Source: Mesodorylaimus sp. YZB2_4 (lineage: Eukaryota > Nematoda > Enoplea > Dorylaimida > Dorylaimidae). Taken from it: a stretch of DNA of 64,000 nt. The position numbers and the translations under genes are program-made. Every line of letters starts with the position of its first letter. The first letter of the stretch is position 1. Shown here piece after piece: positions 1,086 through 49,300 of this stretch. The notes under the pieces are model-generated. The model was not told the DNA's origin. It saw only the letters and a program-made list of their open reading frames with translations, and did no database searches. Location: the NCBI GenBank assembly GCA_030248295.1, contig JASANH010000916.1, positions 620,001 through 684,000 on the forward strand. Direction: 5' to 3'.

Positions 1086-2121
1086 TTTTGAGGAGTGGTG
1101 TGGTTTCAGTGGTTGATTGATTGAATTGTTTGCTTTTATGATTGCTGTAAAAAGTGTTCCTTAAAAAAGTGGTGTGGTTAAAAACAGACTCAAGAAATTT
1201 ACATTTTCCCGCATAAAAATGTAAGAAGTTTTTCTGTCTCCAACCCCCCCCCCCCTGTTTCGGGAAGTGGCTATCTACAAAGGATGCCCACCCCAGACAG
1301 GGGGGGGGTGGATTGGAGGAGGTGGAGGTTGGCGCAGTGAACGTCCACTTTACAAAACTGATGGGAGATATCTCGCAAAATCGACGTTGTTATCATTAGT
1401 AAATACTAGATATAATATTACAGCAAACGCCTATCCAGACTCTTCTTCCGGTGACTCAGATCGATTATTCAAGTTTTTCAAAACACTTTTTTGGCTCCTC
1501 TGAGGCGGATGTCTGTTTTAGTGCTGCTTTCAGTGCATTTGTCGCTCAGATCAGGTGCCTTCTAATCACGCTAGGGTGGTGGGTGGGGGGTTTGGTGGAA
1601 AGTGGACAGAATGGAGAGTGGATGAAGAAAGGGCTCGTGTTTATGTCGCTCAAATCAGGTGTCTTGCGTAACCAAGCCGAGCGGGCGAATGAGAAAGTCG
1701 GCCGGCGGACATCCTCTGAGCGAGTTTGGCGACTCTACCCGCCGCTGAAACATCAAACCTAAGGCTGACCCTTCCTAGCCAGGGAACCGATTACTTTCCA
1801 TCACTCGCCAGGGTTCCGTCATTGGGACGTGCTGAAGTTGTGTTATGCGAAGGATATTCTCCTGGGGGGGGGGGGGGGGCCCGACACCAAACACTGTAGG
1901 TTTGTGACACATGCAGCCTCATTTGAGTAGAATCACTAATCCTATAGCATTTCACAAACTATGTTCCCATGAATTTTTGGCCGGCCCTTTCCCTCATCTA
2001 TTACACAGTCCAGAAATTTCAAGCCTTCAGTGATACGCGCCAATTACGAAGTATACGGGCACAAGCACAGAACATAGCCCAAATCCAACATTGCACAGCT
2101 CTCTGTACCCACACCCAACGT
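1086..2121. other. Gene-free stretch with G/C runs and a repeat fragment
   Basis: No gene is recognisable here. It holds a C-run (1244-1255) facing a G-run (1300-1308) in a small inverted repeat (about 1238-1315), a 16-base G-run (1864-1879), and at about 1655-1830 a piece of the dispersed repeat marked by GCTGAAACATCAA and CAGGG/AACCGATTAC blocks. EXOC1 ends at 2122, so part of 1900-2121 should be its 3' UTR, but I found no AATAAA signal on the minus strand. Confidence 0.5.
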
Positions 2122-2346
2122 TCAATGCTGTTGGGCGATATCGGAAAAACACTGAAGAACATCCTGGATGCTGAACTCCAATTGGATATTTGAATTGGGA
2201 TAACATTGCCCAATCAGCTGTTCATAGTGTTTGTATTGTTGTATGAATTCGTCCTGCATATTTCTCCAAACAACTTGAAGCAGACTCTCGCCATCCGACA
2301 AATGCTTCTGCACTTTCTTGTACAAGTTGTCCAATCCTTTCGACAC
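2122..2346 (-). other. EXOC1: EXOC1 last exon (Sec3 C-terminus)
   Basis: The final coding exon of 74 codons plus stop begins after a TTTTTCAG acceptor. It encodes the most conserved part of the protein, including [26 protein letters not shown] and IQDVLQ, which align without gaps with the human C-terminus. This exon fixes both the identity and the 3' end of the gene. Confidence 0.93.
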
Positions 2347-5300
2347 CTGAAAAAGTGATAATAAAACCTTGCGAAATACAAATATTTTTAAACCATTTTC
2401 TTTGTGTATCTACAAGTTAGAGCGGCTAGTTCGAAAGCCTATATGCGCGTGCACCACCCCACTCACCCCCTAATGTCGCCGTGCGCTTAGAGGCATCCCG
2501 CTGAAATATCCCCACCTCATAAGGCTTCTCCCAGTTTGTAGATCCCAGAAAGATAATGGTAGTCCCACCGCAAGTCGCGCAAGTAGAGACCCTTTCCCTT
2601 TTATTGGCCGCTCGGATCGAGCCTGGGTGGCCGATCTCTGCCAAACCAAACCCTGACACAGGTCTGTCATTCCACTCACCTCTTTCACAGGATAAGCAGC
2701 CACTGCCTTCCGCAACTCCTGCTTATTGAACGCTTGCTGATATCCAATTTCTTCTGGTTTCATTCCCTGCTCTATGCACGTTTCGATTTGCTCGAAAAAG
2801 TTCTGAAAACCGTCAAGATGATGTCACTTTTGTGCATTATATTACGACAAATCGAGACATCGGTGCTGACAGGATGAGTTGTTCAGACACGTATTCGAAC
2901 TCCCTTAACACGGCCGGACAATGGAGGCATCCAACATGCGAAAGGTGCAAAAACAACGGTACCCTTCTCTGCGTTAGGATACATACTGTGATTATTGGCG
3001 ACCACACATCAATTTTAGAACACTTTCCTCAGTAACTTTGCCCCATCGATGAAATATTTCAGAAGCTACTAGACAAGATCAGCATTGGCGGTCACATTCC
3101 ATCGAATAAGTCCGCTTCGCTCCTCTAAGGAATGAACGCATCCACCAGGAAGCCTTCACGTGAAACCAATAGCCTCAATGCCCGCCCCAATATCCCCATC
3201 AAGTAAACGTGCAGCCAGACCGCTCATGGAATGGCCCAGGTCTGGTGCGACCTCCTTTCCACTAACCTGCAACTTCTCCATCGGTTTTCCCATATACTCT
3301 TTCACATAGGCGTCCAGGGCGACTTGATAGCGTTGCTTGACTTCTTTTCGCTGTTGCTCGACGCAAGCGATTTTCAATCGAGAAAGGGCGGCTGAAAAAT
3401 GTTTCAAAAAATCGTCTTAAATTGCATCATTCCCGTCAATTTAATGATATAAATTTCATGGCCTTCACTATGGCACAACTGAATGACTTACAAAACAAGT
3501 AATGATAGTTCTCCAATCTGACCACGGCTGGTGGTGATTTACTGTTCACATCATCGGCCGCACGCTCGATCGCATCCATCACCGCCGCCAATAATGCCGG
3601 ATACCATCGATCCAGGTCGCCACGGCGAGTGCTTATTTGAAAAGTAGCCTCCGCTTGCTGGGCCAATTCCTTAATTGGCTTCCATTTATAAAGTGGATTT
3701 ATCAGACACATGCTTCCTCTGGGTGTACATACTACTATGCGACTCGCTTTCGTGACAATAAAGGCCTAATTTTCTGACACTACCAATCCTACTTTCACAA
3801 TGTGCGCTACCATATGACTTGCAAATCCTTAGCTTTGTGTTGACTCCTTACGATTAGGTGAGTGACCAGGGTACTTATCAACTCCCCTGCTCAATTTGGC
3901 ACTGCGGTGGTCGTGCTCAATCAAGACCCACACTCAAAACAAAAAAATCCCCGTACTAACCACAACAAGCACCCTGATCACCCACCGTCAAGTGCACGTA
4001 TTTGCTTGGTAAGCAGTAAAATGATGATCGCCTGTCAGGACGATCCCGAGACACAACATAACTGCTGGATTTGATTCATCACATCCTTTCCCTTCTCATG
4101 CATATCACTAGCTCCAAGTGAAAGTGTAAGATCAAGCAGTTACGCCAACCATGCATTCCTTCCCGACAACCTACGAGTTGGTGACAGACCTAGGCGCCAC
4201 CAAATTACACTCACTTCAAATGCCCTCAAGTTGTCCAACACTCCAATTTTGGCTCTTTTCAAGATGCGGACATCGCCCATTATTTGCATTTGGCTTTCCT
4301 GAAAAAACACAGGTGCAATTTCAATTGAAAATACAATACATAAGGTCAATACTACCCCATCATACTAGCCATATCCAGCATCGATCGACCCGGGTCTGAG
4401 GCCACCTAGCCGAGTCCAGAACCGACCCAACGTTGTATTGCGCATGCTAATTTGCTTTCCGGCGTGGTACTTTCTTCCGTTAATTAAGGACACCCGCAGT
4501 CAGGAGGGGAGAGGACTTTCAGAATATTTTAGCCCAAATAGAAAGATATTGTGGCGGGAATTCAAAATTCAGACTGGCCGACCCGCAGATTCGTTCGGTT
4601 CCCCGAATTGATCAGGCCCTGATCACGGCGTCAGTTCGGCCGGGTCGGTAGATGCTGGGGCCAAATATAAGACCCTCTTTCCAGCTACATCACCATAAGT
4701 CTATCCCTAGCACTGTCTGCCCGTTACCCCTCGCCAACCGTCCACCACAAACCCCACTCACCATAAACGTATCAAACTTTCTTTTCACAATCACACTAAT
4801 CTTTCCAAAAACGATCGATAAGTAAACACCAGAGTCTTGAATAGCTATCGCTCGATTCGACAGCAAAGCTAATAATTGCATGAGATACCTAAAAATTGAC
4901 ACCATTTTATTACCGGCCCTCCCGAAAATAAATAAATCCACAACAAAGCTTGACTCACATTGGATTCGCTCGCTCGCAATGCGCAACAAATTCTTGCATC
5001 TGCAAATCCAACTGCTCGAATAATTGACCCAAAATGGCTCGAACTTGATCATTAAATTGACGCCTACACAATTTTCAGACCTCAAGTACAAAAAATTACC
5101 AACTCGAAGCTTTTTACTTACTCTAAGCGTCGCTCAGGCGTCGCGTTCGAGCCAGAATCATTGCTCGCAATCTACAAGACAAAAGAAGGTTAGTTGGCCA
5201 TGACTTCCAGCATCGACCGATCCCTCGCTGCATCAGAAATATGACTTTTCTATGTCTCATATTCCGTGTAAATAAGTGCGATAAAAAACAGGATGGGCAA

Positions 5301-33924: not shown

Positions 33925-36114
33925 CTGAGTAAAAAATGTATGAATATAAAAATTTATTACCTTAATCGGTTTTATAAAGTCGTCCTAAAAATTGAGGGAA
34001 AATTTTATATACAGAAGTGGGAATATTGAGGAGGCAAGCGGTGTCGGTGACGTCGGGAAGAGATAGGAAAAGTGAGAGGCCATTCAGAGTAAACATAGCA
34101 GCAGGCCATACGTAATAAGTAGCTTATCGTAACAACTATATCACGCGAGTTGAGTAGGAGGCAGACGTATAAAGCTTTGACGAGAGCGAGAAGGTAGCAT
34201 GATCCAACTCAAAACAGAGTACATGACAAGGAAGCGCGCTCAACTTCATCTTTTTTGAAACAACGCCGAGCCTAAGCAATTATGTCGATGGTATTCTTCC
34301 TCAAATGAAGTTGCGCGACATCAGATTAAGTTGTTTTTCAAGTTACAATGGGATAAGTACACCTACTCAATGTCTGATTAGGGAGAGAGTGGGAGTGAGA
34401 TGCAAGACAGTGAATGAATAGAAGTGAACTTGCAGGTTGTGCATGACAGCAGTGTGAGCATTCCGGTTAATTAAGTGCACGCCATGTGATATATCTACTA
34501 ATAGGCATGCATTATAAGATACATATATTCAGAGGCGTTCCAGAAATACACGATAGTAACCGCCATATTTATCGCTAATTGCTTTCATTAATTAAAGCGC
34601 CATCTGCAAAATGCTCAGGTGAGGGCAGCCCGGTATAACCCGTCTGATCATATTGTTTCTATTAAAAGCACTGTATCTTTTATATTCTAAATATACCATA
34701 CATACAGTATCAGGGTGTGTACAGTACACTTTGACTGGTGGGCTGGCGTGGGCGTAGGTCGATCAAAGAAGGAACATTGAAAATCTAGACTACAGGCACG
34801 TAGCTCCCCTCACTACATACAATATGTACCGATCACTCACTCATTTGAGAGAACAGAATGAACTAAAGAATAATTTATATCTTGGGAATCAGAGCCGGAT
34901 CCAGGAAGCGCTAAAGCCCAGCGCAGGCTTCAAGGATCCACGAGTTAGACCAGCTAGCGATAAAAGAACAAAAATAGTGTAGCAAAAATTGAACGCTAAA
35001 AAATAATTTATCCAATCAGGTGCAGACTCCAAATTTCACTATTCCTAAAGTATCAAAGTGCAAAACACAAACATCGCTCTGGCCTGTTCTCACGCAGGAA
35101 AGACACTGAAACTTGCACCTTCGCCAACGCACCTTTCAAGTGTACTTTGGTACGTGGAGGACTAAATTAGTCACCTACTCGCACAGTATTAAAAGTACAA
35201 ATACCTACTTTCCTTGCGTATATGATCATCTAAACTTGGTCGTCGACTGCGTCAGGAACTTTCCCACGCAGTCAATAAACGAACAACTAGACACACATAG
35301 CTGGCACGTTCGCTGAATCACTTGTCAAATGTTAGGCTTGGCTGGTATGAGTGAACAAACTCGCGAAAATGCCGCGTTGAGTTGAGCAAACAAATATGTG
35401 GGTGGAGATGGAATGAGATGGTAGCCGTCAGCCGCCTTTCTATTATAGAAACGGTTGGGTTCAAAACAAAACCACGAGGGATTTACCATCAAAGAAAACT
35501 GTGGAGGCACGTCAGGCCTAAATTTCTCATTGGATAGTCGGTAAAAATAAAAGGATGAAAACGGAAAAACAAGCGCCCACCTTATCTTTTGTTTCTATTT
35601 TATTCATTCATCAGGCTAAAGCATGACGTCTTTGCCTAAGTGCTCCTAATTTTTCTAGTCACTTGCTGATGTCAAATTTCTGCGCCTTTTGTACCACCTT
35701 TTCGCACATAACAGGAGTCCATCCTCCTGCCTACTCTCTAGTTCACGCAAACAACTATTAACTGATGACCGTTTTATTATTTTAGCTTACTGTGAATTAT
35801 GTCGAGAACTCGCGAGGGGGAATAATGAGAGGCGGTCGTGAATGTAGCTTTCGGCTAGAAAGGGCCAACGCCCGGTGATTAGCTAGCCACCTCCGAGATC
35901 ACCCCATTTCCTTCATTCAAACGGTTTATGTAGGATGGCCTAATTGTACAGCGCAACTTTTTCTGTGCGTTTGTGTGCGATGAAGCTCTTGGACAATAGC
36001 AAAATATGAACCTTGAATACTCGGACTTCAAATCAAGCTTCAACGCTATCACGCATGGGCCTGTGCTTGTGTCAGTATAACTACATACTCAATGGTGTAA
36101 AAATATGAAGCTGA

Positions 36115-36594
36115 CAAGGAATGCTGCCCCACTGTTAAGGTTGTCCCAGGATCGAGAAGGCTCAAAATGAAGGTTGTGACAAAGGGAAACGATGTAAAAC
36201 TTTTTGACGGCTGGACGTGGTTTTGGTCAAGCATAGCAGGCGATCAAACTGACAAGCCGATTTTGAATTTTGTCAAATATTTAGATTTTTTTCACGCCGC
36301 CTGCCTGATTTGCTCGCGCACTTCTCTGTCAACTTTCAAAATGTAATTTAGGCAGCCAGCAACATCTACACGGTGTCCTGAAGCTAAAAAAACATTTGTA
36401 TGAAGACTTTTAGGACACCGGGTATAAATCATTTAAAAAATTCAAAATCGGCTTGTCGCTTCGACCGCCTACCACGCTTGAACAGAACCTCCTCCAGCCG
36501 TCAAAATTTTTACATCGTTTCGCTTTGTCACTGCCTTCATTCTGACCCAGTCTCGATCCTAGGAAAACCTTGACCGTGGGATAGCATTCCTTGT
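36115..36594. mobile_element. Foldback DNA element with about 156-bp inverted arms
   Basis: Arm 36115-36270 and arm 36438-36594 are inverted copies with scattered mismatches: both contain AAGGAATGCT, GTGACAAAG, GAAACGATGTAAAA, TTGACGGCTGGA and ACAAGCCGATTTTGAATTT. The centre has its own hairpin, CGGTGTCCT..AGGACACCGG (36371-36421). A 19-base piece (ATGCTGCCCCACTGTTAAG) recurs at 37741-37759. There is no transposase frame. Confidence 0.75.
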
Positions 36595-37009
36595 AAGCAT
36601 GAAACTATGACTTGAATTTCATCACATTTGAGAACCAGATAAATTTCGACGGTAGATGACTTTTCAGTTTTTTTGTGCGCTACCATAAGATTTCCAGATA
36701 ACTTTTTATTAAAACTTGTTTGGCCCATAGTCGGCCAGCAGCCAAATGTTTAAAGGAAGCCTCCCCATGTGTGAGATTCTCTGCTATATGCTCCCTCTGC
36801 CTCAGGGCTAAAGCAGCGACATAATGGTCAAAAGAACGAGCCAGCATAGCATGACGTAACTGCCTATACAAATGAAGAATAAAGACAGAATGAGAGTTTA
36901 GAAATAAAGAAAAACGACAGAATGAAAGTGTGCACAAGGCGCGCAAAATTATGCATCGTGAACACTTTCTGTCAACCACTTGAGTGAAGCCGCTTTTCCC
37001 CTAACTTTT

Positions 37010-37340: not shown

Positions 37341-40300
37341 TCACCTTCCACCAGTATATCTCATTCCTGTCACTTTTTCCGCAATAGCATTGATTTCTTC
37401 TGGCGGCACTTCCGCATGACCTTGTACTTCCATGTGCATGACACCCATACCCGAGGTCAGACGACGCATCACGCCGACGAAATCAGTCATTTTAGCCAAC
37501 GGCACTCGCGCGCATATTGTACGTGATTTCTCGTCCAAATTACTCCTCGTTTCCAAAATCCAAAAAAGATCACTACGTCTTCGACAAAAACTAAGCAAAT
37601 AAGTCATAGAGCGAGTTGTTATGCGCACAGAGTAACATAAAGTCACTGTTTCTCAGGATTGGCACCAACACTGACATGACTCAAACAAGTTCAAATAAAG
37701 TTTCTTTATATTTTCTTTATGTGAGATAACTTATGAATCCATGCTGCCCCACTGTTAAGTAAGACACCGTGAAAGACTGACGGATTTTAAGAGCGGCATA
37801 ACAAAATCAATGTGCTATACTGACTACTTTTGTGATACTCCTCCCAGTTGTGGGTGGGCGTACCTTCACGCGTACGTGGTTCGAATCACCCCTGCGCGGC
37901 CCCTACCGAAATGGGTGCCAATAACGACAACTCTTTATTGGGCCGACGGGCGGACACCTCCACAAGTATGAGACTAGCCAAGGGGCGAGCACGGAATATA
38001 GGGAGAGGCGGTCAGGAGATACCCAGCCGCTCGTGACGAGATACGTAGACGGCCAGGACGGCCAGAACACCGGGCGACCAGTCCTAGAACTAGTCTAGAT
38101 TAGATCCAAGCTCGCTCTCCTTGCTCCATGACAAGAGAGGACGAGCGCAGGAAGTATTCACGTGTTGCATCAGGCAACCCGTGCCGGGTGGTTCAAACAG
38201 GTAGAGACGAACCCTTCATCAAGAGATGCGGGTTACACTTCAACATTTCGATCGCTGGTGATTAACTTCACGGACGCAAGCTATACGCATCCAACATTAC
38301 ATGCGGCCATAAAAAATTCTGGCAGCAATAACTTTGAATTTTGGGCCCAAAAGGTCGATCCAGGACCTATAATTTTTTCAGTCACATTTATCAAAGTGCG
38401 ATAAGAGACAGAATAACGAGCTCCTTGCGCCTATTCCAGCACTAGCTTGGGCGCCAGAGGATTCTCTTTTCAGCCCCATCCATAGGGATGCCTATTACAG
38501 GGACACACTTTTTTCACTCTCACTCAGGTGCTAAAATTTTGTTTTTTTCACGCTATCTACCGAAAAAATCAATGAGGCCTCCAGCAAAGCCATACACCTC
38601 ATGAGCTCTTTAGCAAAGTAACAACTCAGATTATCGACATCTGAGATTGGATGGAAGACGGGTTCATCGAGAGGGGCATACACTTCGAGTGATCGCAACG
38701 ACTACGCCTATTGACATAACGAGGCACTGACTGTCGGAAATTATCCTAACTGGCTGTTATGGTCACACCTCTTTGGCATGATTGAGCTGTACATGTTTAG
38801 GAGTATCAATCGGGGTCTATAAAAGAAGTTAGTACACAAAGATTTTTCGTGATTTTTGTGATTTTCTCAGGCTTCCCAGGCAAAAATTAATGGTGTTGCT
38901 TCTCGACTGCTAAAATTACTGCATAAGTCAACTTAGAGGTTGCAGTTTATTCTGATCTAGTGAATTTTTATGAAACTGTGAGAACATGCGTAATTATTAC
39001 TGCCATTTTGTCTAAACGAATTCTGTGAGGTTTTTGACAAAACCTTTCAGAAATGATTTCAGTCAGTCGGTATTATGGCTGGTGCTGTTAAAAAAACATT
39101 TCTTCGCTTTCGCTTTTGACACCCCATCGTGAAGCCCAAGGTCTACAAGTACACGAATACGGCTCTAGGCGTGCATTGCAACACCAGGGTCACACCCTAC
39201 AGCGTACACTATCTTACTGTCTGTTCTGCACCTATCCCCCCAAATATGTGAATAAACTTACCTCGGCACGTTTCCCCAACAAATCTGCGCTTATTACTGA
39301 ATAATGAATTTCAGGCACTGTCGTTTCCAGATATACGATCGGTTCCAACAAATGACATCCAGCTTCCTTCAATGCTTTTGTCAGGCAAGCACTTGCGCAG
39401 GCGCCGACCAGTGTTGTTGGGCAACGACGACTAGTGGCCAGCTCCAACAGCACGACCTCCACATCCTAAGTGTATTTAAACAAAACAGTAGCTCCTGGTT
39501 GCTGCTACACACCTCACCGCGTGGTGGATTAAGCTCAGGGTCTACAAATACACGGACATGGTACCAGGCGTGCGCTTGAACACCATGCATGCGCTTGCCA
39601 TCTCAGGACAACCACGCGCTACAGCCTTCACTATCTCATTGTCAATGTTACAATGAATTTGAAGTGCTAACATGTGTGTAAACAGCCTTCCTGTCGACAA
39701 TCTCCAATGGCTGGAAGACATCGACACCACCCCCCCCGGGGATGTTTCAGCCGCAGGTATAGCCGCAAGACTTGCCTTCCTCCAGTTGGAGGTTTTAGTC
39801 CCAGAGACTTCGGTCTCTCACATCTCCTGACACCTACACGTATGCGGGGGCGCCAGTTAATGTACTACTACTGTAAACTGTCCAACTGGCAGCCTGAACG
39901 AGCATGCATGGTCCCACCTAACTCTACCACGTATGCCACCCACTGGTTAACTGAAACCTTTTGCTGGATGCAGTCCCACAGCGTCTCCCTCTCTTGTACA
40001 GACTTCCAATACAGCGGTATTTGCGCCTTTATATGATCAAGATATGCGTTCATGAAAATTTGAGCCTTGATTGGGTTCGAACCCGCACCTCAGGTCTGGT
40101 ACGCCAATCTTGAATGAGCATCACAAAGTCTCTTCCAATTCTAAGTTTGACATTCAGGTCCCATAGATATCCTGCATTGGTTTCAGCTCATGTGCATTCA
40201 TTGCCAAGCGAAACTTCCCTAAATTTGTACCCCTCTATTGCATGCCTCAGTTATCAATGTAAATTTAGTAACTAGAGCTTCCATTGGGCTCATAAAGACC

Positions 40301-43300
40301 ACAAAATTTTTATCAAAGAACCAATTACGGTGTCTGAGGAATTACAATACACCAGCCCTTCTTCACCCCAGCCATCCGCACATACCTGCACTGGTCTTCC
40401 CAGCAACGGCCCATTAGCGCAGGCGTGTTTGCACGCCTCGAACACTGCATCCAAGTACGACTGGGGCACTGCGCGCAGGTCTGTCTCGCCATCTTGTTGC
40501 CTCAGTTTCAGTCGTTTCAATTGACCATAGCCGAGCAAGGCCGGCTCGACTCTCAATCCCAAAGTGACCTCGTAGGTCTCCTTCTTTGTCTGCTCCTTGA
40601 TCACGACATCCTTCAACGTATGATAGGCTTCGGCAGCGTGAGTAATCGATTCTCTATAATTGATTTGTAACGGCCCCAAAAATACATCTAATTTGTACTC
40701 CTTCAATAATCGATCTTTGATAATTTCGATGTGCAAATGACCCATGCCTTCCATGATCGTCTGCTGATTTTCGGCGTCTTCACGAAATCGCAGACTCGGA
40801 TCTTCTCGCGCCAAGGCCTTCAAGGCTTTCTCGAACTGTTCTTGCTGTCCATAACTTGGTGCTTCGATCGAACAGAAAAATACAGGTTCTGGTGGCACAA
40901 TTCCAGCCAGGACCAGTCTACCGCCTTGAGTAGCATCGATTTCATCCATGTTCAAACCCTCGATTGACGACTTTGCTGATGAGTTCGTAGACGAGACTGC
41001 TTCAATGAAGAAATACACATGACATTACCGAATAAATCAAGAATTAAAGTGCATCGATTGAAACATTCATTTGCCGAGCCATAAACTGGGAGCGGGAATA
41101 AACTAGGACTGGAAGCGGATTAGAAGGGTTGTACCCTATGCTTTCCCTGGTTTGCGGAAAGTTCGTCCGCCACATTTCGCCCCCCCCCCCCCCCCCACAA
41201 TTCGTCCCCCGCAACTCGTCCCTGCACAGTTTGTCCCGCTGTTTCGTCCCCTCGCATTTCGTCCCCAGACCATTCGTCCCCAGAAAAATTTTTGTATTCA
41301 TTGTCAAGGAAATCATAGCATTACCCTTATCATAGCAATACAAATATTGTCCTCAAGAATACGCAACGATATATGAGTGAATATAAGCCAAGATACTCAG
41401 AACTCGAAACTGTGTGCGATACTTCTAACAAAATCGATCACATTTCTATTATCAAAGCCCTCACAAATCCACATTGTGATGATGATCCACATGGAGCTCT
41501 CTTTCCCTTCCTAGTCTCAGTCCACATCAACATACCACAAAGAGAACAGGTTTCAGACAAGGAAATATGGACAACTTGGCACCAATAAAGATCTGTACCT
41601 TGCCCTATCAACGAAACCGGTCTTCTAGGTGCTCACCAGGAAGAAAAAAGGCTCAACAAAAAAACCTTTCGCGACAGTTATCACCTGACGTCATTCCTAA
41701 CCTCTAAACTCCTATTGAACTCTCAATAGTTGATGTGGAGACGAATGGTCTGAGGACGAAATGTGAAAGGACGAAACAGCGGGGGACGAAACTACTCTGG
41801 GACGAAATGTGGGGGGCGAAATGTGGGGGACGAAATGTGGGGGACGAACTTTCCGTATGCCGCTTTCCCTCGGCCCTGAATCATAGTGCCTGCTTGGTAC
41901 AGGCCATACAAACCAGCATGTCAACTAATAGTTACAAATCGATTCGCCCTCGACTGCTTAAGGTCTATCCTTTTTTGAACTTGCCCGACCCCCCCATATT
42001 GGCAAGCCATCGAGCTCAAGGCAGACGAGGCTGCCCAAAGTTCGCGCTGAAGCGGTTCCTATTTATCTACTTTTTTTAAAGCTTTCGAGCTGTTGAGCTG
42101 ACAGTGGTGGCTGGTGAGCACGACTCACAGCGTAACCCTCAGCCAGGCAGGTAGTGGCGGAGTGGGAGAGAGTAATCGATACTCTCCCCTGGCTTGGAGA
42201 CCTCAACCTCTCAGGTTGATGTTTCAGCCGTAGGTACAGCCGTACGACTTGCCTACGCCAGTCAGAGTTCTTGGTCGGCCGCACTTTCTCCAGCGCCTGC
42301 CTGGACAGATCGCAACACATACAGAGGTCACACAGAAGACCAAGTGCCTGGGGTTCGAACCTGAGACCTCCCGACGCCTTATCGCTGAGCCACTCGCAGC
42401 TGAAATATATTGTGCGGCTCTGCTTCGAAATATGCCCACTTGACACTCCTAACCGACCCCAACTCAGTCACACTTACATTTCTCACCAGTCGCCTTGTGG
42501 TACGCTTCAGCCGCCCTTCTCGCTGCCGCCTCCGATTCGACGATGGTGTCACCAGTGATCGTGGATTTCAAGCCAGGCACAACAGCAATATTGCCCGCCA
42601 TCACCGATTCCACTTCCTCCATTTCGTCGCTATGGGCCACATAAACACGTTGCACCACCTCCGTCTCGTCCCTACTCGCATTATACACCCTGATGCCACC
42701 CGACAATCGTCCGTTATAGACTCGTATAAAAGTCAAAGCGCCGTGATGCGGATCGTGAATAATCTTGAACACTAAGCCGCACAAATCATCTCGACCATAG
42801 AATGGTAAAAAGGAGTGCTCTCTTTCGTCTGGACTCGGCAGAAAATGACAAATCGAGTCCAACAGAGGTTGAACTCCTTTATTCCTCGCAGATGCACCGC
42901 ACAAGGTCGGAACAATACGACGATTCAATGTCGAACGTCTTAAAGCTTCCATTAAATCAATCGAATTGATTTTCATATACGGATCGCCTGTATCTTGCGC
43001 CAATATCGACTCGGCCAACTGATCATCATGTTCTGCGATTTTCTCAATCATCGTTCGACGTTTATGCTGAAGGTCGTCGTATTCAGAGGAGGATGGCTAG
43101 AACAAGTCTTTTGCGAGTGAGCGTCTTTTAAAGTAAAACATTTGGTTATAAGAACTTTTAGAAACATAAAACTTGAGTGTAAGCTTCCTCGCCTTCCTTC
43201 ACAAGCCGACACTCGAGATCTCAATCGAGCATGATCTGAGTTTTAGGGTTTCATGTTCATGTTTTACCACATCACCAAACGCTTTAGCGCACTCGAGGGT

Positions 43301-46300
43301 GAAGGGACACATTTCACACGAAATGATTTACCGGTCTGCGAGTCGAACACTCGCCCGTAACTACGCACCTGGCGTGAGAGGAAGACGCCTAACCCACCAG
43401 GCCACGAGGGGTTTTGTCGCCACAAGACTCGAGACTCGCCACAGCCATTGCGATACCTTTTGACATTGACTATCACAACAGTCAAATCAAGCAATGACCC
43501 TAACAGAATAACTTGCAAAATAGTAGGTCTATAAAAGTTTTGTGAAATCGCCCAGCACAGCAGTTGGGCCCCATCAAAGCAGAAGTCCCTGATCATGGCT
43601 CCCATCGACTCATACACCAGGGTCCGCAATTCCGAAAGCCCAAAAGAAGTTCGGATGGGACGAGGTTTTAGATATTAACAGTGCGCACAGCTATCACGTA
43701 ATTTTTGGAAAGCACTGTGCCCACATCGCAGTGGCTGACAAGTTGAATTTTAGACACCTTAATTGCTCCTTCCCTGGTCAAATTTAGGGAATTACATACA
43801 GTATTGCAGAGGTACTCAAAACAGCTGACGATTTCGATAAATAGCGCGGGACTTTTTGTAGAGTCTGCAGGAAATTTTTTCAACTTCGTTTTAGAAGAAT
43901 TATCTTTCCGATATATCGTACATTTGCAACTTTATCTTACTAACAACACCGTGATCAATAAATCAATTCTTGTGTAATCTGTCCCTTCACTCTCGAGTGC
44001 CCTGCTAAGCGTTTTGTGATGTGGCTACGCCGTGTCAAACAGGAACAGGGTGATCAGGGGGCTATATTACACAATCAGTGATCAAGATTCGCCACCACTG
44101 GCTGATGCTTGTTTGTGTGCAAAGCAGCTGTGAGAATCGAATTCTTCAATTCATATGAATTTTGGTCCATATCAACCAACATCGCTGACTGGGTATCCAA
44201 GGTAGTGTAGACCCCTTAAAAATTTTGTAAAGGGGGGACCCTTCTCATTTTTTAGACCCCCCCCCCTGTCCCGCCCGGCAAGGGTGTGCAGGTCTGCGGC
44301 CTGATCGTGAGGTGCACTACGTAATAAACCGATGTATGCGATTATCAGATGACTTCTGACATAGGCAATAGGAAATCAACCGAGACTTGGAAATTTTATG
44401 CAGTCAACAGATCTATGCGATTAAGCGATACTCAATTGAGTGGAGTCAGCTGTATTAGCTTGGCGATGGAGGAGTGCGCACGACTCAGTTTTTGAACTCG
44501 CGGAGAAGAAAGGCCTTTTCGACTGGTAGGCTGACTAGACCACCTCGCCACTTCCTATTGCCGCCCTCTGCTTTGCTGGTCAAACCACAATCAGATTGCC
44601 GTTTTCATTCCTGTTTTCAGTTTCTAAAAACTACACTCAAGTTGCAGTTTTGCATCCCGCTTAACTTTAGGTCTTGAGCCTGACAACCGTCGATGCACCA
44701 TCAACACCTAGCATGCTACTGAACTGTTGCAAAAAGTCGGAAAGAGTGCCCAATTCCTATGTTGTGAGGAGCGCAGTGGATGTCAGGCGCAACCGCTCGA
44801 TCTTAAAGTTTACTCGACACTACAGGAAAGGTTCAGACAGATGATGGGTGGTAGTGGGAAAAGGGGTGAGTCAGAGGTAGACGGGAAACGTTACAAGACG
44901 CAAAAACCCCATCAATCAGATAAGAAGAGAATCAAAGTCATGCAGCCTCTGCACCTTCGAACAGCCAACCAAGTGCCATCAACGACTTCGAAAAAAATGC
45001 CACGGGCATGACGGTATGACCAGGGCGCTCCTGCGTGGACGTGATTGCGAGAAGATGCAAAATTGTTTGCGCCTGATCACGCAAATCCTGTGACAGAGCC
45101 CGATAATGAGGGTTTATCGTGGATCAGAACAGGCTATCTGATGCGATGTAGGCGTCCCACCCAACCACACCAAGGAGGGACGCTGTCCATGCATTCGCAT
45201 AGATTTTTTGGTTTACCAGGAACCATCCTAGCGTCGTCTCGGTACAGATAAGCGCCTTCGAGAAACTGGGTTCAGGAGTCGAATATTTTCCCATGCAGCA
45301 AAAGGTTAATAAATGGCCCCCAAAAAACATCAAAAGAACTAAAAAGAAACAAGACTTAGTTTTACAGAGCGTAATCACGCGACAGCAGGTTGCAGCTGGA
45401 CAAACACGATGCTCGTGTCACAACAGCTCTTCGTACTATGCCACAAAGCTCTTATTCGGCTCCTTTCGGCGGTTTTTGAGGCGCTGTTTCAAGAGGTACT
45501 CTTCGGAAAAAGGTACTCCTGATACTAGCACACCAGTCATAGCCTGCCACACCGTTTTGCATACCATCAGTTGCAGAAATCAAGGAACGCTGGTCAGCCA
45601 CGATCGCATGAGTGCACACAAGCCAGCGCTAAGCTGCTCAGCCGGGTCAGCTGGGTACATTTGAAGCATGTTGCAGCGCACTCTGGCCCCCACAGGGTGT
45701 CGAGCACGCATGACGACTCACCTCCACTTTTGTCCTCTTGTACACTTTTCCATCCTCATTATTCGGCCATTCCAGATATTCCATTCGAATCAAATCGGCC
45801 ACACCACGAAACGTCTTTCCCTTGCCCAATGGCGATTGTAACAGAACTGGATCGATTTTCAGTTTTTCCTTGATAGAATTCAAACATTGATCCACATTTG
45901 CACCTAAAATTTGGACTAATCTGTGAGTATCAATGGCACCAAACAAAAACTATAAAATCAAAACTATTGCCCACCTGGTTTATCCATTTTATTCAAATAC
46001 ACAATCGACGGGATCCGAAAATGACGAGCTTGGCGCCAAACGGTTACAGTCTGTGCTTCCACACCAGCCGATGCATCCAAAATGGTGACAGCACCATCCA
46101 ACACGCGAAGACATCGTTCAACCTGAAAATATGATATCGATGCACTCGATTTCGTTGCGGTCACCAATCAACGCACCAAACACAGAATGATGTTTTCGAA
46201 CAAAGCATTGGCGCATACGAGACAGTCAGGACAAAAAGGTCAGAAAGCCAGCGCACTCACCTCCAATGTGAAATCTACATGACCAGGCGTATCGATCAAA

Positions 46301-49300
46301 TTCAATCGATGTTGATTAAAATAGAACGTGATGGCAGCAGATGTGATCGTAATGCCTAAAATAACAAACTAGTCTCACGCATGGCTTCTCACACTTCCGC
46401 GCAAGATATCAAAGGATAGGATTTGATTAGTTCAAGTCATTTGTGACCGCAAAGAAATTAGCATGAAACTTGAATATGTCAAGTCCAGCACCTTGAAGTC
46501 TAAATTTTAGTGGTGATGGCATAAAGCACACGTTGCCCCGATTCTATGCGATAGAAAGGTAGTTCGAAATGTCGGACTTGCACAATGCACAGTGACAGCA
46601 CAGCAGCTGGAAATGTACCCGCCAGGGTGATGTTTCGCCCAAACCAGGTCAGAAGAGTTGGACATCTGGACTGGGAAGAATTTGAATATTTCAGTTCAAA
46701 CATAGAATACGAGTACATGTCCGAGAAATCGACACGCCCCAGAAAACTAGCACAGTATTCCGATGTGTCTCAAAATAATGTACAAAAGTTACATCATCTT
46801 GACGCTTTTTCAGGACCTTGTCGAGCAAATTGAAACGTGCATTGAGCAGAGAATGAAACCGGAAGAAATCGGAAATCAGCGAGCGTTCAATAAGCAGGAA
46901 TCGCGGAAGGCAGTGGCTGCTTATCCTGCGGAAGAGCTAAGTAGATAGAATGACAGGCTTTAAGAGGCGAGTGCCTGGAAATCTGTGGAGCTAGCTTCGT
47001 TCCCGCCTGAAGAGGTGTCCACATTTGTACGCCTGGCGGCGGGAAACTTATTGTCAGCCTTTATCCCAGCTGGCAACATCGCTGACTTCGTCTGCAGGAA
47101 GGGTGGTCTGATCTTCTTCCCGCAGGACGGGGGGGGGGGGTCGGAAGGTCGGCGACTTGGCGGCCCATTTTGGTTACTTGTAAAAATTGAATTATTTAAA
47201 TTTAAATTTTTCCCGCGAAAATTTAAAGTTGGTTTGGGCCTTCCAAGGAAAAACCTTGGGTCCTTTCTTACTATAAAAAAATGAAATTTTTCTTTGGGGG
47301 GGGGGGGGGGGGCAAAAATAGCAAAGGTACCTGCACAACCTCGCCGGGCGGGACAGGAGGGTCTCCGCCATGAAAAAATTTTCTTCAGCCAAAGAAAGTA
47401 AAGGGGGGGCGTAAAAACCAATAAAGTTACCTGCAGACCCTTGCCGGGCGGGGCGGGTCAGGGGGGTCTAAAACATGAAAAGGGTCCCCCTTTACAAAAT
47501 TTTCCCAAAATTTTTTAAGGGGGTTTACGCTACCTTGGATACCCAGTCAGCGATGTTGCCAGCTGGGTCGATAAACAAATGCTTTTAATTAATGGGGCGG
47601 AAGTATTTCAAGCCCAGGTCCCCACCCCAAGGTGCATGGAGTGAGCGTGGACCTTTGGGTAACCACTAATCACGGCTATTGGGGAGGGACGAATAACACG
47701 CGCTCTCTGTCTTCGCACCCCTCCCTGGTCACTCTGTCAGCAACATCAAGTGCCACTGTACTGTAGAAGGTACAGCAGTTCTCGCCGTTCCACAAAAATA
47801 TAGTGCTTTACGTTACAAAACGAGGTCTATATATTTCTGGGAGGGTTTTTTCGGCGCACTGTGAGCACGCTTTGATGGATCTCAGTGATTTTTGACTCCA
47901 GCATGCGAGTTATGGTATCCGAGAACCCTACCACGGGATTTGGCGAAGTTTTGATTGATTCTGGAAATATCAATCAAAAACACTTTCTGAAGTGTACAGT
48001 AGACCACTGTATTGAAGAATACGGATCGGCACCTTTTACCAGCGAAAAGATAAGCAACTGGATAAAGAAATGGCCCCAAAAGGACAACAGGTTCATGGTG
48101 TACAACTCTTATGCTGGCGCTGAAGGAAGCGACAAAGTCGAAATTAAAGGAAGTACTGTGCCTGAAATTAGAGTACATCGGTGCAGGTCACGAGCGAGTA
48201 CAGTATGGGCAAGATCGGCTGGGTTGGGTGGGGGGGGGGAGGGGGTAGAGATCAGATCAGATCAGATCGCCTAAGCCTGATCTGATTGCGTGTTAGACAG
48301 GTCAGGCCAGGTCAGGTTTGGGCCGAGTCGAGTGAGTGAGTTGTATGACTTTACGTACTGTACTGTACGTTGGCTGGACAATTGGCCTGTGCTTAGTCAG
48401 TCAGGTCAGGTCTTGGTCCAGCCCAACAGGGGGCTTTACCCCTCCAACCCCCTCGCCCATACATGGTCACGAGTAAAGCATATAAACAGAGTCCCACTGA
48501 CCTCGTTCCCGTTCTTGTTCCATATAATCAGTAACAGTGCTGCCACTGTCGACATCGCCCATCGCTCTCGTGAATCCACAATAATACAACATTCGTTCAG
48601 TGGTCGTGGTCTTTCCTAGAAAGCAGAAAACACTTCAAATTAGCGTGTAATGCACAATTGACTAGCAATATTTAGGGCCACACAAAGTGTATTTATCGAT
48701 AGTTACGATACCAAAAAGACAGTAACTTTTCACATTTTTCGCCAGAGGGTTCTGCTCAACTATCAATACTTGATATACTGTATTCCCTTAAAACGCTCTC
48801 TAGTCAAGTTTGCGGACAAAAATGTGCTAATTCATTTAAAAATAGTAAGCGATATGAGAACTTGTGTAGCTGACAGGGATATATACAATTTTATATTAAT
48901 TACTGTATGTCATACTCGCAATACAGCAAAGTGGAAAAGTGCATATGTGTTGCTACTTCAATTTTTAGAAGTAAAATGCAGGCCTTAGTATATTTTACAG
49001 TGTGCGCACAAATATCGGGACCAGTGAAACATGTCATTTGCTCATGCTGTGCTTCACATTGTACATTACAGTATATTCGCATCAAATATGTTACATATTT
49101 ACTTTATGTAATTTTCGTGCATGTGGAGTTTTTCAAATATGCAATAATCATTAGGTCGAAGGTGTAAAATGCAAGTTGAAACAACAGGAGCTCTTGCGAT
49201 GGTTGTATAGCATGTGGTCGATTGATAGGCGCCGAGAATTCTAATTTTTTGTGGACCCGAAACAGGTTTCAGGTGACTGACAAAATGGGATTTGTGACAC

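Follow-up and report, generated by a model that had tools for sequence, protein, structure and literature searches.

One exon of a Sec3/EXOC1 gene, with parts of both of its flanking introns, is present a second time in the window (the whole stretch of 64,000 nucleotides that was analyzed), where it lies in reverse orientation, 44 kb away, in an intron of an EF-G/GFM2-like gene (Table 1). The copy is probably the product of a one-time, short, templated duplicative insertion, made by break repair or template switching, and would now be drifting. The initial annotation had described the copied exon with its intron pieces, the orientation, the distance and the host intron, and our alignment and reading of the host gene agree with it on each of these points. 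It had placed the copy at 46772 to 46958, which is the right locus, but by alignment that interval starts 23 bases late and ends 2 bases beyond the edge. The copy preserves a clean record of a short exon-plus-intron transfer into the intron of another gene. Exon-plus-intron copies in introns are what exon shuffling is proposed to draw on; the scar itself is of an ordinary kind and leaves the view of either gene unchanged.

Table 1. Positions in the window of the donor, the copy, the neighboring element and the host gene
Feature	Position	Strand	Basis and remarks
Donor block, exon plus flanking intron (65 bp upstream, 16 bp downstream)	2664..2867	-	Alignment; Pfam PF20654
Donor exon, 123 bp, 41 codons	2680..2802	-	Acceptor AG and donor GT present; Pfam
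Open stretch ITITSAA...DTPGHVDF of the EF-G/GFM2-like gene	46243..46368	-	One side of host intron; motifs; approximate edges
Copied block	46749..46956	+	Reversed relative to donor; alignment
Pseudo-exon	46814..46936	+	Open; acceptor AG intact, donor GT now CT; alignment, Pfam
MITE-like element (47074-47558) between the two copies of its 8-bp target duplication CCAGCTGG	47066..47566	.	Exact 8/8
Open stretch GKTTTTERM...QERERG of the EF-G/GFM2-like gene	48470..48634	-	Other side of host intron; motifs; approximate edges

Local alignment of the copied block with the donor block gave 178 identical positions in 210 columns, 8 of them gap columns. A BLASTN search of 45501-48500 against the window paired 46761-46956 with 2854-2664 at 85.2% identity and an E value of 1.6e-58, which excludes a chance match. 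The exon part aligns without a gap and with 14 differences (109/123 identical, 88.6%), so that the roughly 89% identity and open frame first reported are both correct; the intron part, by subtraction, is identical in 69 of the remaining 87 columns (79%). The intron carried with the exon amounts to about 65 bp upstream and, downstream, to about 20 bp in the copy and 16 bp in the donor. Because similarity runs past the exon edges into both introns rather than ending exactly at them, the copy is not a spliced (processed) retrocopy. Although the intron inside the block is 79% identical, clear similarity reaches only about 65 bp ahead of the exon and 20 bp past it, which argues for a short insertion. 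Searches of the genome (145,146,385 bases in 1067 contigs) with 46700-47000 and with 2000-3400 each found the block at two places only, at an E value of 0.001 or better, and further copies attached to the repeat at 47070-47560, which the initial annotation had proposed to look for, were not among them. Two base-rate queries, 3100-3900 in EXOC1 and 40293-41024 in the GFM2-like gene, had no other DNA match, two being too few for a rate.

The donor exon scored 26.2 bits against the Sec3_C-term profile (Pfam PF20654). The previous stretch of the gene, 3159-3416, scored 27.3 bits against the same profile, and the next, 2125-2349, scored 48.9 bits and reached the profile end; since only the latter comes after the donor exon, the donor exon is the next-to-last recognized. 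A PF20654 search of the whole genome listed two places, both in the Sec3/EXOC1 gene, and as this search omitted the 3159-3416 stretch, weak relatives could escape it. The host gene, on the reverse strand, carries EF-G domains by profile search, and from its motifs we take it to be GFM2-like. The host intron spans the region between the two open stretches of Table 1 and is the second, counting visible coding stretches only. The same intron holds a dispersed repeat at 48202-48425, for which all 40 scored candidates, of 612 at first look, were matching (the window's own included).

The state of the copied exon was compared with that of its parent. Most of the differences had been thought to be third-position or conservative, a description that the counts contradict: first, second and third codon positions account for 6, 3 and 5 of them, 9 of the 14 alter the amino acid and 5 are silent; 11 are transitions. 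A count without transition weighting gave a dS of 0.24 and a dN of 0.097. Free drift of the copy beside a held parent would give a dN of about half of dS, and the observed 0.4 of dS fits this expectation; on its own, however, the 0.4 might instead reflect past constraint on the copy, and 14 differences are too few to dismiss that reading. Simulations of 14 random changes, with the observed share of transitions, altered 9.4 residues on average (9 or fewer in 51% of simulations) and left the frame open in 51% of the simulated exons. As random change gives the same pattern, neither the open frame nor the mildness of the changes points to function, and the differences appear to agree with an absence of constraint, their small number (14) leaving room for weak past constraint. 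The pseudo-exon scored 17.9 bits against PF20654, below the cut-off of 23.7, compared with the donor's 26.2. A functional alternative exon would have intact splice sites, and here the acceptor is retained and the donor lost, though a cryptic donor may exist; reading past the pseudo-exon meets an in-frame stop at the fourth codon. Judged from these sequence features, the copy is most likely a drifting pseudo-exon without sign of selection.

The edges of the block carry few marks. The longest word common to 46724-46770 and 46940-46985 is 6 bp long and lies beyond the block edges, by 18 and 21 bp, so that no target duplication was found at the block edges; an A-run is absent from these edges, as is a poly(A) signal by eye. 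The edges are blurred by intron divergence of about 20%, and small old duplications could have decayed. Neither a target duplication of at least 5 bp nor poly(A), the marks of a LINE-type (class 1) insertion, is visible at the copy, an old event from which such traces could have been lost. We also considered, and rejected, the possibility that pieces of other genes adjoin the copy in a patchwork. The sequence 46000-46770 matches only itself; that at 46960-47073 is found elsewhere only as its last 1 to 12 bases before the neighboring element, in 5 listed matches (40 of 217 candidates scored); and that at 47567-48480 has matches elsewhere only in the dispersed repeat, within about 48185-48426, with 40 of 612 candidates scored, so that a lone weaker match among the other candidates could be missed. 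Scans of the whole window for Rfam families and tRNA genes gave no matches.

In the proposed sequence of events, a break or stalled fork would have arisen in the intron of the EF-G/GFM2-like gene and been repaired from a template in the Sec3/EXOC1 locus, a stretch of about 208 bp that comprises the exon and a little of the intron on each side. The templated piece would have been inserted reversed, one time, with the donor left unchanged. The copy would since have accumulated changes with no visible constraint, the loss of its splice donor among them, and a MITE would have landed 109 bp away as a separate event. We infer the repair mechanism, and the type of template, which may have been DNA or unspliced pre-mRNA. 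According to Onozawa and Aplan (PMC5110952), experimental templated insertions in human cell lines measure 73 to 414 bp (median, 191), come from distant sources and leave the donor intact, and those of class 2 are without target duplication or poly(A). The present copy resembles class 2: its 208 bp fall in that range, its source is distant, the donor is intact after copying, and no target duplication, poly(A) signal (by eye) or poly(A) tract was seen in it. Unlike the insertions described there, which come from human cells and people and show junction microhomology and polymorphism, the event here is old, so that microhomology or micro-deletion at the joints cannot show, and the source lies 44 kb away on the same contig. 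The same paper (PMC5110952) argues for RNA as a template of such insertions and includes intronic sequence among the templates; intron content alone is thus no proof of a DNA template, and the earlier conclusion that the copy arose through DNA, while right about the included intron, was overstated as proof.

Two bodies of work on nematodes offer further comparisons. The genome analyzed here gave 133 matches to Col_cuticle_N, a domain of nematode cuticle collagens, against none in 14 control genomes, so that it is most likely that of a nematode. Young duplicates in Caenorhabditis elegans, as described in PMC2728529, are compact, often partial, intrachromosomal and often inverted, with a median span of 1.4 kb; ours is likewise partial, inverted, on the same contig and most likely in a nematode, but far shorter than that median and not adjacent to its source. 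Polymerase theta in C. elegans leaves templated inserts that match sequence near the break, according to PMC4490562. Those inserts share with our copy a patch copied at a repaired break, the repair being inferred in our case, but they match close to the break, whereas the source here is 44 kb away. Together, the literature on templated insertions, duplicates and polymerase theta makes a one-time copy during repair the plain reading.

It is improbable, though the alternative that survives best, that the 3' part of the gene was once duplicated in inverted orientation over a greater length, that this older duplication has decayed, and that gene conversion from the functional exon later produced the 208-bp block. 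This alternative draws on a faint similarity, at the edge of significance, between 46957-47065 plus 47567 onward and donor intron 20 (about 2663-2460), across the MITE site; if real, this similarity would mean a longer, older duplication. With the MITE removed, an anchored downstream alignment of 200 nt to intron 20 scored 23.5, matched by 1 of 1000 shuffles of either side and by 0 of 696 genomic controls. However, 200 nt was the best of four anchored lengths tried, and the others were weaker: 106 nt was matched by 60 and 45 of 1000 shuffles and 14 of 696 controls, 300 nt by 1 and 3 of 1000 and 1 of 696, and 400 nt by 11 and 7 of 1000 and 3 of 696. Local comparisons, 20 in all (five donor regions, both flanks and two scorings), were divided on intron 20 and the downstream flank, with 5 of 400 controls as high under soft scoring but 146 of 400 under hard scoring. 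Exon 21 would be expected to be better preserved than intron, yet it was not found downstream of the copy, where 395 and 303 of 400 controls scored as high. Exon 19 against the downstream flank was the second-best of the 20 local comparisons (18/400, hard scoring), but in a position misplaced for a colinear copy. Upstream of 46749 there was no similarity to the donor above controls, with anchored tests at chance and the lowest of 10 local comparisons at 48/400.

It is very unlikely that the copy is a retained regulatory antisense element, through which the GFM2-like pre-mRNA would pair with EXOC1 mRNA and feed small RNAs. The orientation does put the exon's complement inside the host intron, and the longest perfect run between copy and donor exon is 26 nt. 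Against this, the differences fit drift, and the antisense stretch, being part of an intron, would be removed by splicing. The antisense EXOC1 RNA of the initial annotation is sound in its geometry, while nothing in the sequence indicates that it would act. A further reading, in which the accidental insertion of the reversed exon turned the GFM2-like pre-mRNA into a source of antisense RNA to EXOC1 and the neighboring genes became coupled via small RNAs, is more doubtful still.

Carriage of the exon by a transposon, whether the neighboring GC-rich repeat or another element, is extremely unlikely. The GC-rich repeat had been suggested as the carrier and is close by, but an exact 8-bp target duplication of its own flanks it, starting 109 bases past the copied block and excluding the copy, so that the fragment is outside the element's ends; the block occurs only twice in the genome, and the exon is absent from all 29 other fetched copies of the element, each taken with about 1.5 kb on either side. 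The repeat is dispersed, with 68 matching stretches (the window's own included) from the 40 of 217 first-look candidates that were scored. Both termini, CAACATCGCTGACT and its complement with up to 2 changes, were present in 27 of 30 fetched loci, the window copy included, and at 19 of these 27 at least 7 of the 8 flanking bases match. The length of the duplication, 8 bp, points to a non-autonomous DNA element that may be hAT-like or of a similar class. A truncated piece of the same MITE family, about 82% identical to 47074-47558, lies at 44177-44293. Nothing was found in favor of an assembly artefact, which is likewise extremely unlikely, given that the two copies diverge by 15% within an ordered alignment and are bordered by different sequences. 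Elsewhere in the window, 36110-36283 and 36425-36598 form an inverted pair of about 175 bp with 82% identity, 141 bp apart.
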